DNA of 64,000 nucleotides from Paenibacillus graminis (GTDB taxonomy: Bacteria > Bacillota > Bacilli > Paenibacillales > Paenibacillaceae), in the NCBI RefSeq assembly GCF_000758705.1, contig NZ_CP009287.1:4216001-4280000 (forward strand), given 5' to 3'. Of this stretch, positions 1,975 to 64,000 are shown in pieces. The position numbers and the translations under genes were made by a program. The notes beneath the pieces are model-generated. The model was not told the origin of the DNA, did no database searches, and saw only the letters and a list, made by a program, of their open reading frames with translations. The first letter of the stretch is position 1; every line of letters begins with the position of its first letter.

Positions 1975-3132
1975 TTACACAAGAGCTACAATCTTACGGG
2001 CCCCGTCCGCCATTGAGTCTGCTGCCACAATATTCAGCCCCGAACCGGCAAGAATCTCTTTGCCCAGCGCAACATTGGTGCCTTCAAGGCGCACAACAAG
2101 CGGTTTGGTCAGGCCGAGCTGTCTGGCAGCCTCCACTACGCCGCTCGCAATGACATCACAGCGCATGATCCCGCCGAAAATATTGACGAATATTCCATTC
2201 ACCTTGTCATCGGACAAAATAATTTTGAAAGCCTCGGTAACCTTCTCAGTAGTGGCACCGCCCCCTACATCCAGGAAGTTGGCCGGCTCGCCTCCATAAT
2301 ATTTGATAATATCCATTGTAGCCATGGCCAGACCGGCACCGTTCACCATGCAGCCGATATTCCCGTCAAGTGCGATGTAGCTGAGATCGAATTTGGATGC
2401 TTCAATCTCCTTTGCATCCTCTTCATCAAGGTCGCGCAGCTCAAGAATATCCTTGTGCCGGAACAATGCATTGGAGTCAAAGTTCAGCTTGGCATCCAGT
2501 GCCATGACATTTCCATCCCCGGTCACAACCAGAGGGTTAATTTCGGCAATGGAGCAATCCTTATCCACAAAAGCTAAATAGAGCGCTTGCATGAACTTAA
2601 CCGCTTTATTGACCAGCTCCGTGGGAATCGCAATGCTGTACGCCAGTTTACGGGCTTGAAAAGTCTGCAGCCCTACTGCAGGATCAATAATTTCCTTAAA
2701 AATCTTCTCCGGATGCGTTGCCGCAACCTCTTCAATCTCTGTTCCGCCTTCCTCCGAAGCCATCATCACCACACGCCCGGAGCCACGGTCGACTACAAGT
2801 CCGATGTAGTATTCCTTAACAATCTGGCAGCCTTCTTCAATGAGAAGCCGTTTGACTACCTTCCCTTCCGGACCGGTCTGATGGGTAATCAGCGTCTTTC
2901 CGAGAATCTCTTCAGCATACGCCCGTACCTCTTCGCTTGATTTGGCGACCTTCACGCCTCCGGCCTTACCGCGCCCGCCAGCATGAATCTGCGCTTTTAC
3001 CACTACCACCGGGGTCCCCAGCGATGCTGCGGCTTCCACCGCTTCCTCCACTGTATAAGCTACTTTTCCGTTCGGTACGGCGACGCCGTACTTCTTAAGT
3101 ACTTCTTTTCCCTGATACTCGTGGATATTCAT
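1975..3132 (-). CDS. sucC: Succinyl-CoA synthetase (ADP-forming) beta subunit
   Basis: This is the nucleotide-binding subunit paired with SucD. The N terminus [17 protein letters not shown] opens an ATP-grasp fold, with the glycine-rich [15 protein letters not shown] segment near residue 47. The C-terminal ligase domain carries [11 protein letters not shown] and the GGGATTEKV and [10 protein letters not shown] motifs. At 385 residues it is full length. An AGGAGG-type site (complement of gcctcc) precedes the ATG. It is the first gene of sucCD. A possible promoter and catabolite-response-like element lie about 240-265 bases upstream. Confidence 0.97.
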
Positions 3133-3370
3133 ACCGGAAGCCTCCTAAAGTATTGCGGTGGCTATGCAGGCAGCCTGCTGCCATTCCGCTTTCCGTTTTG
3201 ATTGTCCAAAGCCGGGTCCAGACCGGTGAAAACTTACAATATCCCGGTACATACAGAATACCCATGCCGCATCATCCTGACAACGGCACAGGTTTCTGTC
3301 CATGGCTTCCGGGGACGAATAACCAGTGTGATCCGATTTTCACCCAGAGCCATAATATGAAACCCAGAAT

Positions 3371-31985: not shown

Positions 31986-33407
31986 CTACTTCGGAACCCG
32001 GATGGTAAATACCGTCGGTTCTCCCTCCCTGCTCGCAAGCTCCAGTGAACCGCCCATCTTCTCGGCGTTTTTCTTCGCGATGGATAACCCCAGCCCGGTT
32101 CCGCCGCTTGCTGTACTGCGGGCTTCGTCTCCCCGGACGAACGGGTCAAAAATCGTCGACCAGAGCTCCTTCGGAATGCCCACGCCATTGTCGGCAATCT
32201 CAATACGAATCTCTGTGTCCTCCGGGAAGACGCTTACCCGCAGGTGTGTGCCATTGGGATTGTAAGCCAGCGCATTTGAGATCAGATTATTGACAACACT
32301 TGCGAACAGCTCCGGATCATAATGGGCATACATTTCCTCATCTGGAACCTGAAGCTGAAGCTGGAAGTCTTTTTGCTCGATTTCGCCGTAGGTGTCGGCA
32401 ACAATCTCCCGCAGGTGATCCCCGAGCTCAAGCCGTTCCGTGCGGAGAATGAAATCCGGTGAGTCCAGCTTCAGCAGCTCCAGCATATGCTGGATCAGCT
32501 TCGTCACCTGCACGGATTTGTTGTAAATATAATTCAGGTATTTTGTCTGCCGTTCAGGGTCGGTCCCCCGCCCCTCCATTAAGGCCTGTGCATAACCCTG
32601 GATACTCGTAATCGGTGTTTTCAGATCATGGGACAGGTCTACCATCAGCCGCTGTTTGCTTTTCTCGGCCCGCCGCTTCTCTTCTGTAGTCTTCTCAATC
32701 ACATCCGCCATGTAATTGAAGCTTTCCCCGATCCTCAGGAATTCCGTCTCCGCGTACAAGGCAATCCGCGTGCTGTAATGCCCCTCCATCATCTGCTTCA
32801 GTCCGAGATTCAGAACCCGCAGCGGCTTCTTGATACGTCTGGTGACCCAATAGCTATATACAAAGATCAGCATCAGTATGAGCCCGCTGACCAAAAATAC
32901 GTAGAAAAATACAGAATGGTTCAAATAGGAGACCAGCATTGCATTATCAATGGACACTTTGACCACATCGCGGGGGATTTTGAGCAGCAGCCAGGCCGCC
33001 TGCCCGTCTCCGTCTATTTTGGCAATCGAATAATAGTAAGGCTGATCCGTGCGGTTCTCCAGCTCCAGAAATAAACGGTCTTCATCATAGGACTGGATCT
33101 GGTCCTCCTTGTTTCCAATGACCCGAATCACTTGCTTATTGGAATCAAGCAGCTCCAGCCAGCCTCCGCTGTGCAGCAGCTGGGTGCTTCGCGGGCCGTC
33201 GCCCAGCTCTTCGAGATAATGACCAGCTTCGACCGAAAGATTGGGGTCCGTAAGCCGCTTGTCAAGGATCATGTGGGTAATATCCTTCTGGATAAAAAGA
33301 TAGACTCCAAGCACGAGCAGCAGCAGCATGCAGTTGAACAGCAAAAAATCCAGGGTGAGTGATGTCTGCAGCGGGCGGTTGTCTCTACTTTTCCACGGGT
33401 GCTTCAA
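31986..33407 (-). CDS. Sensor histidine kinase
   Basis: A 473-residue membrane kinase. Two helices (about residues 22-44 and 163-186) flank an extracytoplasmic sensor of about 115 residues, followed by HAMP. The H-box is SHDLKTPITSIQGYAQAL, the N-box NNLISNALAYN, and the G-boxes DNGVGIP and GGTGLGLSIAKKNAEKMGG. The start is TTG inside the last codons of the response regulator gene (23-base overlap), so the two are coupled. The signal is unknown; the VanS/YycG-like architecture is general. Confidence 0.93.
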   Translation of the reverse strand: MKHPWKSRDNRPLQTSLTLDFLLFNCMLLLLVLGVYLFIQKDITHMILDKRLTDPNLSVEAGHYLEELGDGPRSTQLLHSGGWLELLDSNKQVIRVIGNKEDQIQSYDEDRLFLELENRTDQPYYYSIAKIDGDGQAAWLLLKIPRDVVKVSIDNAMLVSYLNHSVFFYVFLVSGLILMLIFVYSYWVTRRIKKPLRVLNLGLKQMMEGHYSTRIALYAETEFLRIGESFNYMADVIEKTTEEKRRAEKSKQRLMVDLSHDLKTPITSIQGYAQALMEGRGTDPERQTKYLNYIYNKSVQVTKLIQHMLELLKLDSPDFILRTERLELGDHLREIVADTYGEIEQKDFQLQLQVPDEEMYAHYDPELFASVVNNLISNALAYNPNGTHLRVSVFPEDTEIRIEIADNGVGIPKELWSTIFDPFVRGDEARSTASGGTGLGLSIAKKNAEKMGGSLELASREGEPTVFTIRVPK

Positions 33408-34089
33408 TTTTGTACCCCAATCCCCTGATCGTCTTCAGGTATTCCGGCTTCTTGGAATCGCGCTCGATCTTGTCGCGGATATTGCTGATATGCACCATAA
33501 TACTGTTGTCTTCATAGACATAGAAGTCTTCCCAGACGGCTTCATAAATTTTTTTGCGGGTGAACACCCGGCCCGGCTGCTCCATTAGAAGCTCCAGAAT
33601 TTTGTACTCCGTAGAGGTCAGTGCAACCGGTTCTCCGGCCACTTCAACCTGACAGCTGCTCCGGTCAAGCAGCAACCGTCCGAGCACAATCTGCTCCTTC
33701 TTCTTCTCTTGGACTGCCGGAGCATCGAACTCATGAACCCGCCGCAGCATGGAACCTACACGGGCAACGATTTCCAGCGGATTGAACGGTTTGGAGATAT
33801 AATCATCCGCTCCCAGCTCAAGGCCCAGAATTTTATCATGGTATTGGCTTTTGGCCGATAGAAACAGCACTGGAAAATGATCGTTTTCACGGATTCGCTT
33901 GAGCAGCTGCAGCCCGTCCATACCCGGCATCATAATATCAAGAATCGCCAGGTCCACGGTGTGGCTCTGCATCAGCTTTAAGGCCTCGTTCCCGTTCTGC
34001 GCTTGCAAAATGTTGTATTCCTTCTCCAGATACAGCTGCAGAAGTTCAACAATTTCCAATTCATCGTCGGCAATCAGAATGGTATACAT
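33385..34089 (-). CDS. OmpR-family response regulator
   Basis: A 234-residue regulator with a receiver domain (phosphoacceptor Asp in LAILDIMMPGMDG near residue 52, Lys in YISKPFNP) and a C-terminal winged helix (LTSTEYKILELLMEQPGRVFTRKKIYEAVW, YEDNSIMVHISNIRDKIE). It is the first gene of the two-component operon with the kinase downstream. Confidence 0.95.
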   Translation of the reverse strand: MYTILIADDELEIVELLQLYLEKEYNILQAQNGNEALKLMQSHTVDLAILDIMMPGMDGLQLLKRIRENDHFPVLFLSAKSQYHDKILGLELGADDYISKPFNPLEIVARVGSMLRRVHEFDAPAVQEKKKEQIVLGRLLLDRSSCQVEVAGEPVALTSTEYKILELLMEQPGRVFTRKKIYEAVWEDFYVYEDNSIMVHISNIRDKIERDSKKPEYLKTIRGLGYKIEAPVEK

Positions 34090-58277: not shown

Positions 58278-58523
58278 CTACACAGTCTTTCTTTGATAAA
58301 GACGTTTTCTAAATCCGGTTTTTACGGATTCTTTACCCAAAAAAATATGCTCATCCGGCACATCATAAAGATCCAGTAATTCAAGGAGGAATGCGTGTGG
58401 TATGTTAGTAGAGTCTTCTTCGTATTTTTGAACAGTATCAACGCTCTTGTTAACTTCCACCGCCACTTCACCTTGACTCATCCCCTTATTGACTCTTGCC
58501 GCTCGAAGTGTAATCTTGAACAT
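58278..58523 (-). CDS. Cro-like XRE regulator
   Basis: An 81-residue helix-turn-helix protein (MFKITLRAARVNKGMSQGEVAVEVNKSVDTVQKYE). It is the first gene of the early operon, divergent from the CI-like gene, so a Cro-type role is inferred. An early promoter with TTGACA lies upstream. Confidence 0.8.
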   Translation of the reverse strand: MFKITLRAARVNKGMSQGEVAVEVNKSVDTVQKYEEDSTNIPHAFLLELLDLYDVPDEHIFLGKESVKTGFRKRLYQRKTV

Positions 58524-58683: not shown

Positions 58684-59103
58684 GTGCGTAGAAAACTCAC
58701 GGATGTAGATAAAAAACTTATGGAGAAAATGGCTAGTAACTTAAAGGCGGTTCTCGAGAAACAGGGAATAACTCAAAAAGAGCTATCTGAAAAGTCTGGA
58801 ATTTCAACAAGTGCGATATCTGAATATGCAAACGGGAAAACACTAATGACTCCCAGTACAGTTTTTCTCTTCGCCGAGAAACTCGGAGTAGCCAATGGGG
58901 ATATTGACCCAAGATTTAGAGACACGGAGAAAATAAAAAAAGACCTCCCCATTAACTTAACTGGGGCGGCCTTAGACGAACTACCAATCGAAACTTTAGA
59001 CATACATAATCTGACAAAAAACGGAATTCCGCTTACTGAGAAACAGAAGAAGAACCTTGTGAAAATTTTGAATTCTGCTCTTGATCTGATGGACCTGGAA
59101 TAG
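58684..59103 (+). CDS. CI-like XRE repressor
   Basis: A 139-residue helix-turn-helix protein (NLKAVLEKQGITQKELSEKSGISTSAISEYANGKTLMTPSTV). The C-terminal part (about 90-139) has no peptidase motif, so it is not an autocleaving repressor. It diverges from the Cro-like gene. GTG start at 58684; AAGGAA lies 12 bases upstream. Confidence 0.8.
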   Translation: MRRKLTDVDKKLMEKMASNLKAVLEKQGITQKELSEKSGISTSAISEYANGKTLMTPSTVFLFAEKLGVANGDIDPRFRDTEKIKKDLPINLTGAALDELPIETLDIHNLTKNGIPLTEKQKKNLVKILNSALDLMDLE

Positions 59104-59300
59104 AATTTAAGTATTTTTCCGCTTCGGTTATGTCGATACCACGGGCACTAAGGCGTTGTAAAAGTTCTTCGGTACTGATGGTGTAGATTATTGTGATAAG
59201 TCATCACTCCCTGTTATGGAAATTTCCGCCGCGATAATATAAGACGAGCATACCATAAATGCGAACAGAATACGAACGATTTTCAAGAAAGGAGAACAGC

Positions 59301-59528
59301 ATGGCATACCTGCTCGGGGAATGCCTGCTACCAGACCGTTTAAAAGAAAAAGGTATTAAACCAGTCGATTTTGCTCGGCACATGAAATGTTCCCGCTCCT
59401 TTGTGAGCCAATTGATTTCTGGAGAATCCAAAATGTCACTAGAATTTGCGATCAATGCGGCCCATTATCTTAATTGCCGGGTAACTGACTTATATGTATT
59501 GAATTGGTCTGGTAACAGGTCAGAGTAG
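59301..59528 (+). CDS. XRE-family regulator
   Basis: A 75-residue helix-turn-helix protein (ECLLPDRLKEKGIKPVDFARHMKCSRSFVSQLISGESKMS). ATG at 59301 has AAAGGAG upstream. It follows the CI-like gene on the same strand and precedes the quorum-sensing operon, which is convergent. Confidence 0.75.
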   Translation: MAYLLGECLLPDRLKEKGIKPVDFARHMKCSRSFVSQLISGESKMSLEFAINAAHYLNCRVTDLYVLNWSGNRSE

Positions 59529-59772: not shown

Positions 59773-59801
59773 CAAAAAAATAAACCGCCTTTGGCGGTCT
59801 A
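59773..59801 (-). terminator. Terminator of the agr-like operon
   Basis: On the minus strand ACCGCC-AAA-GGCGGT is followed by TTATTTTTTT. It overlaps the stop of the LytTR gene. Confidence 0.85.
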
Positions 59802-60164
59802 GGAAAATATACAGTTTAACTGTAATGCCAATATTTCCTTCATCAGAGTCTTATACCCCTTCTCCGATAACATGCATTTTTCATCTCCATCAAAAAAAGC
59901 CGTTTTGGAAAAACGATCCACTTGAACGACTTTCATCAAGTTAATAGATGCTGTCCGGTCCGCAAGAGAAAATCTAAAACCACTATTGTTGATGACCTCA
60001 GTCCAATAATTCAATGTACCTGTTGTATAATACTCCCGTACCGCTGTAGTGACAACCACACACCTGTATTTGCTACTAAATCTCAAATAAAGAATGTCCT
60101 CGACAGGCAAAGGATATAATCCACGTTTTCCGGCATGGTCTTTAGTAACACTTAAAATGACCAT
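59799..60164 (-). CDS. Stand-alone LytTR DNA-binding regulator
   Basis: A 121-residue protein made of a LytTR domain only. PLPVEDILYLRFSSKYRCVVVTT, YYTTGTLNYWTEVIN, FRFSLADRTASINLMKVVQVDRFSKTAFF and the final KTLMKEIL follow the LytTR fold. There is no receiver domain before it. ATG at 60164 lies nine bases after GGGAG and 17 bases beyond agrD. In streptococcal LytTR systems such proteins are held inactive by a membrane partner; here the seven-helix protein is the candidate. Confidence 0.8.
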   Translation of the reverse strand: MVILSVTKDHAGKRGLYPLPVEDILYLRFSSKYRCVVVTTAVREYYTTGTLNYWTEVINNSGFRFSLADRTASINLMKVVQVDRFSKTAFFDGDEKCMLSEKGYKTLMKEILALQLNCIFS

Positions 60165-60181
60165 TGATACCAACTCCCGAT

Positions 60182-60307
60182 TTATTTCAATAACTCTTCT
60201 GGCACTTCAGGTTGATGGATATACAATATACTTGCAGTATTCACAAATGCAAATGCAACCAGGGAAAGAACAGTTGCCAGACTATGGGCAATTCGTTTTT
60301 TAATCAT
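60182..60307 (-). CDS. agrD: AgrD-like autoinducer precursor, cysteine-free
   Basis: A 41-residue peptide with an amphipathic basic leader (MIKKRIAHSLATVLSL), a hydrophobic stretch (VAFAFVNTA) and the charged AgrD-type tail QPEVPEELLK. The ring-forming position normally held by Cys is Ser26, giving a predicted core around SILYI. There is no Cys in the peptide, so a lactone and not a thiolactone is expected. The ATG overlaps the end of agrB by eight bases, with AAAGGAGG inside agrB. Confidence 0.85.
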   Translation of the reverse strand: MIKKRIAHSLATVLSLVAFAFVNTASILYIHQPEVPEELLK

Positions 60308-60830
60308 GAATGTCACCTCCTTTCAAGCGAATAAGCGTCAATGACTGAACAAAAAAACTTAATGATAATGCGGAATAGTCAACAAAAAAAGCCACACTCA
60401 CCACCAAAACACCGGCTAATTTTAGTATCGGATAATACCTTTTTGGAATCCTGCTTTGTCGCTCAATTCTAGATGGAGCAAAAATAACTACGCAAAATAT
60501 GCTTATAATCGACATGTAAAAATTCATTTTCCGACTCATTTCGACAAAAGAAAACAATGTGAACATTGTTGTCGTTGTTAATACACAGAGAACTCCGGAT
60601 CTTAAATGAACTCCTCCAGTAATTTGACGAAGAACAGCGAATGATAAGAGCATTACAGAAACTTCTGAAATCTTTCTTGTTAGAAGTGATATAGTCAAGG
60701 TTAAAACTAGAATAAAGACTACGTTATATACACCTTCTAAGGCAAACTTCAAAACTGCCTCACTTGCTCGATGATCGGGTGCGGCTCTCTTAATGGCTCT
60801 GGCCGTTACAATGGATAACCTTTCAATCAT
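60300..60830 (-). CDS. agrB: AgrB-type peptide-processing membrane protease
   Basis: A 176-residue AgrB protein with several membrane helices. The catalytic His and Cys of the family lie in LRQITGGVHLRSGVLC (His near residue 77, Cys near 84). It cleaves the C-terminal tail of AgrD and forms the ring. The ATG at 60830 follows AAGGA and overlaps the upstream sensor gene by eight bases. Together with agrD it makes the signal-producing half of the module. Confidence 0.9.
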   Translation of the reverse strand: MIERLSIVTARAIKRAAPDHRASEAVLKFALEGVYNVVFILVLTLTISLLTRKISEVSVMLLSFAVLRQITGGVHLRSGVLCVLTTTTMFTLFSFVEMSRKMNFYMSIISIFCVVIFAPSRIERQSRIPKRYYPILKLAGVLVVSVAFFVDYSALSLSFFVQSLTLIRLKGGDIHD

Positions 60831-61446
60831 TCTCTCGATCCTTCCGTGTTGCATAATAGAGCAAATAAGCCGATATAGCGGTGAAGAATAAAATATTTAT
60901 GTATATCTCGTTGTAAAACATAAGCAACGAAATTCCTATGAAAAAGAGTATGATAAGCAGTACAACCATAATATCTTCAAATTTAAATCGAAGTCTATGG
61001 AGTTCAAATGTGAATCCATGGCCTGTACGATAAAATAACCATGACAGAATCATAATCACTGAACCACTTGCCAACTGCAATACATATCCATTCGAATCAG
61101 TAGCCTGAGCCTCACCAATTGATCCAAAAAATAAAATGGCTAATCCAGTTTGAACAACACCAAAAATCACGTAACCACTAATGGTTAAAATAATCGAAAA
61201 CCCCAAAGGAATCCTTACAAAAATTGCGAAAAACAGTATAAAGTAAAATATTGTTACTATAGGCATTATGCCTCCAAGCTGAAATTCATTTCTTAAAATA
61301 AAGCTCTGAAGATTGATAAGAAGAACCAGAACCAACGCTTGCCAGGCATGTTCTTCCCATCTGAACCTGAAAAGACACATAATCAAAAAGTAAAGCGAAA
61401 AAGCTTCAACCGTGGAAAAAAACAAAAACAAGATTGAATCCCACAT
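60823..61446 (-). CDS. Seven-helix AgrC-like sensor without kinase domain
   Basis: A 207-residue protein with about seven predicted membrane helices (for example MWDSILFLFFSTVEAFSLYF, FYFILFFAIFV, FGVVQTGLAILFF, IMILSWLFY, DIMVVLLIILFFIGISLLMF, ILFFTAISAYLLYY) and a short basic tail (ATRKDREND). This is the size and layout of an AgrC N-terminal sensor, but no histidine kinase follows. I chose ATG 61446 (GGGCGGTG upstream). A sensor role is inferred from operon position. Confidence 0.6.
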   Translation of the reverse strand: MWDSILFLFFSTVEAFSLYFLIMCLFRFRWEEHAWQALVLVLLINLQSFILRNEFQLGGIMPIVTIFYFILFFAIFVRIPLGFSIILTISGYVIFGVVQTGLAILFFGSIGEAQATDSNGYVLQLASGSVIMILSWLFYRTGHGFTFELHRLRFKFEDIMVVLLIILFFIGISLLMFYNEIYINILFFTAISAYLLYYATRKDREND

Positions 61447-61525
61447 TACAACACCGCCCACTTCATAATCTTTCGACATAATTATATATCCGAAGACCTA
61501 TTAGCGTATAGTAATATTTCCCTGC

Positions 61526-63125: not shown

Positions 63126-64000
63126 ATGAAGAAAATCAAAATAATATTAATGTTTTTGCTTATTTTCGCAGCTTTTCCTATTTCCAACATCTTAGCCGCA
63201 AATGAAGATTTATTGTCGGGCAAGTTATTTGTTTCACCTAATAATAAAGTTAGCAATCTAGCTTATATCACTGACAATAAAGACAGTACAACATCATGGT
63301 GGACTGGAATTGAAACTATTTATTATGAATTCTCTGAGCCAGTTAACATTTCTAGTGGTAGATTTATACTTAATACTTCAAACTCTAAAGCTGGAGTTAA
63401 ATTATATGATGATACGGGAGCACAAATATATTATTCAAACTCTTCGGCTGGTACATATACCATTGGGGCGCTATCTAATGTAAAACGTATTGAGGTTATA
63501 GGTACATATTCCAACGACTTCGGTGGATCAAGCATTGCGGATTTTAAACTTTATGGATCTGTGACTGTTCCAACACCGACGCCAACAGTAACGCCTACAC
63601 CTACAGCAACACCTACTGCAACACCAACACCAACACCAACACCAACACCGACAGCAACACCAACAGCAACACCAACACCTACTGCAACACCAACACCGAC
63701 AGCAACACCGACAGCAACACCAACACCTACTGCAACACCAACACCGACAGCAACACCGACAGCAACACCAACACCGACAGCAACGGCAACAGCAACACCT
63801 ACACCAGCGCTTGATCCTACTCTTGATGTAGCCATCGCTCCCGAAAAAATCGGTGTAGGCAAAGAGTTTACTGCTGATATTTCACTTAAGAACGTGAAGG
63901 ATATTTATGCTGAAGACTTCGAAATCAGATATGACAATAAGCTTCTCCAATACCTAGGCTTTGAAGAAGTAACTGGCTATAAGGTATATAACAATCCAAC
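63126..64000 (+). CDS. Secreted protein with Thr-Pro repeats and cohesin-like domain (partial)
   Basis: The ATG at 63126 follows AAGGAG. A signal peptide ([20 protein letters not shown]) precedes a beta-rich domain of about 120 residues with discoidin-like character ([21 protein letters not shown]). A very regular Thr-Pro/Thr-Ala repeat (roughly 63568-63804) follows, then a cohesin-type start ([40 protein letters not shown]). The gene runs off the window. Cohesin-like domains act in extracellular assemblies or surface proteins. No stop is reached. Confidence 0.8.
63568..63804 (+). repeat. ACA-CCA-type tandem repeats coding for Thr-Pro/Thr-Ala
   Basis: The units acacca, acaccg and acagca repeat about 40 times with little variation. 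The codon choice varies slightly, so slippage during replication is likely to change its length. Confidence 0.9.

Follow-up and report, generated by a model that had tools for sequence, protein, structure and literature searches.

The window, the whole 64,000-nucleotide stretch of Paenibacillus graminis DNA that was analysed, contains at 59799-61446 on the minus strand a cassette of four genes in the order P1-agrB-agrD-LytTR gene, with all four frames open. The cassette, its flanking elements and its neighbours are as follows.

61481..61510, minus strand: promoter-like conserved element TATACG-N18-TATAAT, 5' of P1, conserved before many Ser-type cassettes
60823..61446, minus strand: P1, a membrane protein and presumed peptide sensor without a kinase, 207 aa (218 aa if an upstream ATG is used)
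60300..60830, minus strand: AgrB, the AgrD-processing membrane peptidase (PF04647, E 9.4e-17), with its ATG at 60830 in an ORF that opens at 60854
60182..60307, minus strand: AgrD precursor of the Ser type (TIGR04223, E 3.7e-13, from a scan of 60182-60304 with the first codon left off)
59799..60164, minus strand: receiver-less LytTR DNA-binding protein (PF04397, E 6.3e-10), 121 aa from the ATG at 60164 or 124 aa from a TTG at 60173
59781..59801, minus strand: terminator-like stem-loop (9 pairs) with a run of T behind it, directly 3' of the LytTR gene
58278-58523 (minus strand), 58684-59103 (plus strand) and 59259-59528 (plus strand): Cro/CI-like HTH genes, neighbours outside the cassette, with HTH_3 and HTH_31 or HTH_26 matches

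P1 and agrB overlap by 8 bases, as do agrB and agrD, and a gap of 17 bases separates agrD from the ATG of the LytTR gene. With its open frames and close spacing, the locus bears out the packed four-gene minus-strand unit that a sequence-only reading of this DNA had described.

The cassette is part of a prophage's regulator region. Phage genes, including those for an ArpU-type activator (phrog_248), DnaB, RecT and a ParB-like protein, occupy 40.8-58.2 kb of the window and are followed at 58.3-59.5 kb by the Cro/CI-like genes, of which 58684-59103 matches phage repressor PHROGs. Endolysin and tail genes lie to the right of the cassette, and a 504-codon frame at genome position 4314743 has a serine-recombinase match. 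The prophage is perhaps 58 kb in size, a provisional figure with approximate ends and with annotation covering the genes outside 4300-4314 kb. The window copy adjoins Cro/CI-like genes, and the copies in the phages and at a paralogous locus (L018) are close to integrase and XRE-type genes, a position that makes a possible part in lysogeny plausible. Also to the right are three similar tandem proteins of secreted type with Pro-Thr repeats (770-1636, 2367-3218 and 3697-4704 of L021, the first 11 kb to the right); the VGVG frame at window 63551-63862 is probably the opposite strand of this repeat. An Rfam search of window 40-64 kb gave 0 matches at E 0.05.

Profile scans agreed with the proposal of the sequence-only reading that a membrane protein lacking a kinase and a LytTR protein lacking a receiver are combined here with agrBD, in a prophage and near CI/Cro-like genes. 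By Pfam, the 124 aa form of the cassette LytTR protein contained a LytTR domain alone and no receiver. The LytTR family set matched the DNA-binding domain of AgrA (4xqj, E 8e-7), with the LytTR proteins of phages Emery and Davies and of locus L001 scoring below the Pfam cut-off. A second short LytTR gene (L018:6731-7144, PF04397 E 1.2e-7) was found between the integrase and the third-paralogue cassette of P. graminis.

A kinase or receiver gene split off nearby that completes a normal AgrC/AgrA pair was looked for and not found. HATPase and receiver families were absent among the 25 listed of the 49 Pfam families matched by 45 proteins from window 36-63 kb and L021. A HATPase profile run over the whole window matched one ORF only (31989-33434), outside the prophage part, and matched none in L021 and L281; within the stretches searched, a split-off kinase for the window cassette finds no support. 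With no receiver in the LytTR protein and no kinase in P1, the LytTR protein would not be controllable by phosphotransfer in the known way.

P1 belongs to no described family. Pfam gave no family for the window protein at E up to 1 or for any of the 4 P1 proteins scanned, NCBIfam gave no meaningful match, and among phage families there was a weak match to phrog_15604, annotated "membrane protein" (E 9.7e-9). Its hydropathy profile has 8 peaks, two of which are just 10 residues apart, suggesting about seven helices. A single residue, Gln124, is invariant among 96 aligned P1 sequences. The sequence-only reading had named membership of an unrelated transporter family as grounds against its case; neither Pfam nor NCBIfam pointed to such a family, and the best solved structure was TehA, a partial match at E 0.095, so that a known transporter was rejected.

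Two genomes of another family encode HATPase_c proteins of 452-469 aa whose N-terminal half is the P1 domain, and for some of these the stretch includes AgrB as well; the four that were scanned matched HATPase_c at E 2.8e-19 to 1.9e-21. Such P1-kinase loci lie near AgrB in Chengkuizengella-type genomes (L221, L223, L231, L234 and L235), and the P1 part of one was 100% identical over 99% to a Chengkuizengella marina protein named "sensor histidine kinase"; that search gave no other match. An hhalign comparison of P1 with the N-terminal half of the Chengkuizengella kinases gave 99.7% probability (E 2e-26, 206 columns). Against the sensor parts of AgrC-type kinases of Paenibacillus the probability was 0.4% and 1.9%, with 0.3% for an AgrB control; the comparison covered AgrC-type kinases of the genus and the AgrB-linked kinases of Chengkuizengella. 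Judged by these alignments, P1 is the sensor-type domain that certain AgrB-linked kinases carry and is not detectably the usual AgrC sensor. The description of P1 as an AgrC-like sensor was therefore upheld in one respect, as natural P1-histidine-kinase proteins occur beside AgrB, and not in another, as no homology to the AgrC-type kinase sensors of the genus was detectable. Because the same domain fronts AgrB-linked histidine kinases in Chengkuizengella, P1 is most likely a sensor.

In a P1 tree of 87 rows, whose root is not fixed, the kinase-bearing forms grouped (100/98) within kinase-less ones; three further rows were copies or cut pieces of P1 kinases. P1 matched 12 and 18 times in two genomes of one family (f4), often in tandem runs (L219-L220, L228-L248). 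These runs surround AgrB and LytTR genes, some with a Cys-type AgrD.

The cassette layout is not confined to the window prophage. P. graminis has four AgrB genes, every one within a P1-AgrB-AgrD-LytTR cassette; the three paralogues lie close to genes for a tyrosine integrase, an XRE-type protein and the second LytTR protein (L018), between a DinB-type gene and sda (L019), and behind a Y-family polymerase gene (L020). AgrB was found in 85 of 100 Paenibacillus genomes. We examined the neighbourhoods of 149 AgrB rows plus the window out of 171 AgrB matches, the weaker remainder being left out together with repeat records of a place already counted and loci from the LytTR search. P1 was present in 123 of the 149 rows, and a short LytTR gene in 110 of these 123, with no LytTR detected in the other 13. 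The full layout without a kinase passed a strict automatic test in 90/149 rows and in 3/3 phages, and it was the commonest AgrB context in the genus sample. The profiles for P1, AgrB and LytTR were each built from seven sequences (window, three paralogues and three phages), so that recovery of these seven loci is by construction, and the counts include related genomes and are not independent. Some cassettes look decayed, as in L105, L112 and L091, where LytTR is missing.

In the order Paenibacillales as a whole, the P1 profile matched 190 of 296 genomes, spread over 35 of the 48 genera, and among 20 distant P1 stretches from other families of the order, AgrB was present in 18 and LytTR in 17. 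The Brevibacillus phages Davies, Emery and Abouo carry this four-gene set close to their integrases. Among viral contigs, window P1 found no relative, and the Abouo query found one 100% identical locus, presumably Abouo itself; a search of genome contigs matched 6 named Paenibacillus loci. A layout unique to the window prophage was rejected on the paralogues, the genus rows and the order-wide occurrence of P1, and the strict-test recurrence in the genus and the phages argues that the layout is not due to chance.

P1 and a kinase are mutually exclusive at AgrB loci of the genus. The neighbourhood survey found a HATPase ORF in 22 of the 26 AgrB rows without P1 and in none of the 123 with it, counted within the fetched stretches with a broad profile, a narrower kinase profile having missed the Chengkuizengella kinases. 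In 21 of the 123 P1 rows the sequence covered on one side of AgrB is shorter than 2 kb, and beside some loci it is only ~1.5 kb. Among the distant stretches, L210 contained a weak HATPase match (155 aa, E 0.0024), and in L224 a 386 aa kinase is encoded on its own upstream of the cassette.

The His and Cys of the AgrB H-x6-C motif, which we take to be the catalytic pair, are present in the window and in 127/127 P1-linked AgrBs (window, 3 phages and 123 genus rows). Window AgrD carries a Ser at -10, with positions counted here and below from the P of PxEL, and its peptide should be a Ser lactone with the predicted ring S-I-L-Y-I. Across the 127 P1 rows, Ser -10 occurred in 55, Cys -10 in 3 (one of which has Lys at -9 too) and Lys -9 without either of them in 63; a further 6 rows gave no AgrD, and no other pattern was seen. 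The genus rows alone gave 54 Ser, 3 Cys, 60 Lys and 6 without a detected AgrD.

Lys at -9 is invariant in the AgrDs without Ser or Cys at -10 (e.g., L002:2010-2129). It is conceivable that its side chain is closed on residue -6 to form a 16-atom lactam ring, the usual Cys/Ser ring size by a simple atom count on the predicted lactam. Lys-type AgrDs also occur in other families of the order, although some of the matches there are false and at several loci there was no match. The Lys types cluster in the P1 tree, indicating that they are not independent events. A divergent P1-AgrB group with a LytTR-like protein of 131-153 aa (L053, L073, L104 and L119) yielded no AgrD with the PxEL pattern. Two AgrB-AgrD pairs (L165:3116-3631 and L166:2976-3491) are without P1, LytTR and kinase, and are flanked by host genes similar to the ones at 1.9-6.5 kb of the window.

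The Lys-type loci of the genus lie beside a sporulation gene. An Sda match was found directly downstream in 60/60 non-phage Lys-type genus rows; a stricter Sda motif picked out 44 of the 63 Lys rows and none of the 54 Ser rows, and Pfam confirmed Sda at two Lys-type loci. All 20 extended Lys-type regions (L261-L280) contained Sda, and 16 of them had a strong Spo0A match, which in three of these 16 was partial in the best piece. In P. graminis this linkage concerns L019, a paralogue of the window cassette and not the window copy, where sda is at L019:9194-9373 and Pfam confirmed Spo0A, SpoIVB and a RecN-type gene. A leader element around GAATGACAGGAGACGG and the palindrome AAATGGTACCATTT is strongly conserved ~60-150 bases before sda (L019, 9194) in 60 Lys-type loci; Rfam gave 3 matches around it, all under the family cut-off.

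Upstream regions are conserved within each type, with TATACG-N18-TATAAT before many Ser-type cassettes, the window included, and TGTTGTTG-N17-TATAAT before Lys-type cassettes. A sigma-70 consensus scan did not list the window element. Genome-wide, its pattern had 6 matches, 2 of which were cassettes, vs 4 for the reversed control, which gives no support for further genes driven by this element. Across 127 upstream regions, some with called starts too far upstream, direct repeats showed no clear excess at spacings 20-22 (z -0.3, 1.3 and -0.9; 11 pairs vs 6.3 expected at spacing 21), the largest excess being at spacing 10 (z 4.1). Direct repeats of the LytTR-system kind are thus not in evidence upstream of the cassettes.

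Because the unit contains neither a kinase nor a receiver, we propose that P1 acts on the LytTR protein directly, and we lean toward reading the cassette as a phosphorylation-free agr variant in which P1 gates LytTR. AgrB would trim AgrD and close a five-residue ring through Ser, giving the predicted S-I-L-Y-I lactone, and the peptide would be secreted and detected by P1. In its simplest form, P1 would hold LytTR at the membrane until the peptide binds; freed LytTR would then act on DNA, perhaps at the conserved promoter of its own cassette and at a phage target that may bear on lysogeny. The sensor step is supported by the linkage, the P1/kinase exclusion and the P1-kinase proteins. The reading as a whole is favoured by these points and by the short LytTR in 110 of the 123 P1 rows, the placement of all four P. 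graminis AgrB genes in this cassette, the AgrB His and Cys in every P1-linked row, the match of LytTR to the AgrA domain, the type-conserved promoters, the same gene order in other families, and the four strong GHKL kinases of the genome, which sit by full-length LytTR regulators and not by AgrB. It is weakened by the lack of detectable similarity to AgrC sensors of the genus and of a clear sign of LytTR-type repeats, the 13 of 123 rows without a detected LytTR and the decayed cassettes, and also by the short flanks at some loci, the sub-cut-off LytTR scores in Emery, Davies and L001, and the kinase matches at L210 and L224.

Three other explanations were weighed. P1 might be an accessory of AgrB in export, processing or immunity rather than a receptor, with LytTR a constitutive autoregulator or a responder to another signal. 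That P1 directly precedes AgrB with overlapping frames and has no known family agrees with this account; however, P1 takes the place of the kinase at AgrB loci and is kinase-fused elsewhere, and the 12 and 18 P1 matches in two genomes, many in tandem, suit receptor diversification better than export. We consider an accessory role unlikely. Somewhat less probable still is that P1 pairs or works with a histidine kinase encoded elsewhere and that LytTR is controlled indirectly. Outside the cassette the P. graminis genome does contain 18 GHKL matches, of which four are strong, but these four all adjoin full-length LytTR regulators of their own and none adjoins AgrB; moreover, the LytTR protein of the cassette offers a kinase no receiver as its target, and the phage copies would require such a kinase in every host.

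It is very improbable that the cassette is a degenerate agr remnant that lost its kinase and receiver, with a non-working prophage copy. Decayed relatives such as L105, L112 and L091, from which LytTR is absent, do exist, but the window has four open frames, the compact order recurs in 90/149 genus rows and in phages, the AgrB His and Cys are kept, and the promoter is conserved.

A broader reading, which joins direct gating by P1 with the signal types and their loci, is offered as a tentative possibility that we rate below an even chance. Agr systems of Paenibacillales would often be phosphorylation-free, with a kinase-less receptor directly gating LytTR. One large class would make a predicted Lys -9 lactam over four residues, with a 16-membered ring. 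In the genus sample this class occupies a chromosomal position next to sda, often with spo0A close by, which hints at a cell-density signal for sporulation; in phages and prophages, both Lys and Ser forms would be found in the lysogeny regions. If true, a widespread branch of agr, the textbook Gram-positive two-component quorum sensor, works without histidine kinase or phosphorelay, and direct membrane control of LytTR regulators gains a testable peptide input, placed here in a prophage regulator region. The Lys-type AgrDs predict a natural lactam autoinducer that can be checked by mass spectrometry, and the neighbouring sda, often with spo0A, makes a link to sporulation testable for the Lys type.

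In the titles and abstract openings covered, a part of the literature, no description of the chromosomal kinase-free system or of a Lys-type autoinducer was found. The LytTR partner, the chromosomal spread, the Lys -9 AgrDs and the fixed place beside sda of the Lys-type loci of the genus are apparently new, no account of them having been found. The kinase-less AgrC-like genes of three phages are already known: the consulted part of Hargreaves et al. 2014 (PMC3901668) describes AgrB, AgrD and kinase-lacking AgrC-like membrane proteins in phages Davies, Emery and Abouo, and both of the paper's "LytTR" mentions concern other things than these phages. The earlier statement that no example with this layout was known is not supported, given this report and the standing of the layout in the genus survey. 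An agr-like cassette in P. polymyxa is mentioned in the consulted part of Voichek et al. 2020 (PMC7425212).

The three phages share with the window the four genes of the cassette, which in the phages lie near an integrase; they differ in having a Lys-type rather than a Ser-type AgrD and a P1 placed elsewhere in the tree. The P1 histidine kinases of Chengkuizengella have the same sensor domain beside AgrB, but fused to a HATPase. Clostridioides difficile phage phiCDHM1 also carries agrB, agrD and a sensor gene, but in the accounts consulted its agrC product is a full-length kinase of 453 or 445 aa and its agr3 locus is described without a LytTR gene.

With the HdrRM and BrsRM systems, the cassette shares a small receiver-less LytTR protein and a membrane protein without a kinase, here in one operon although the two genes are not directly adjacent. 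In those systems the membrane protein inhibits the regulator, which is under positive autoregulation. The consulted part of Zou et al. 2018 (PMC6193735) gives the membrane protein as DUF3021 or DUF2154 and places 9-bp direct repeats ~12 bp apart upstream of the -35 element. P1 is unrelated, with no DUF3021 or DUF2154 match in the 4 P1 proteins scanned; agrBD is included; and the membrane gene comes first in the cassette, whereas the regulator gene is upstream in HdrRM/BrsRM. Of the features described for the streptococcal LytTR systems to which the cassette had been likened, neither the domains (Pfam) nor the gene order was found here, and 9-bp repeats showed no clear excess over 127 upstream regions. 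With the canonical agr system (AgrBDCA, Staphylococcus type), the cassette shares AgrB with its His and Cys, AgrD with a PxEL tail and a ring-forming Ser at -10, and a LytTR DNA-binding domain related to that of AgrA; it differs in being without the AgrC kinase and the AgrA receiver and in its order, P1-B-D-LytTR.
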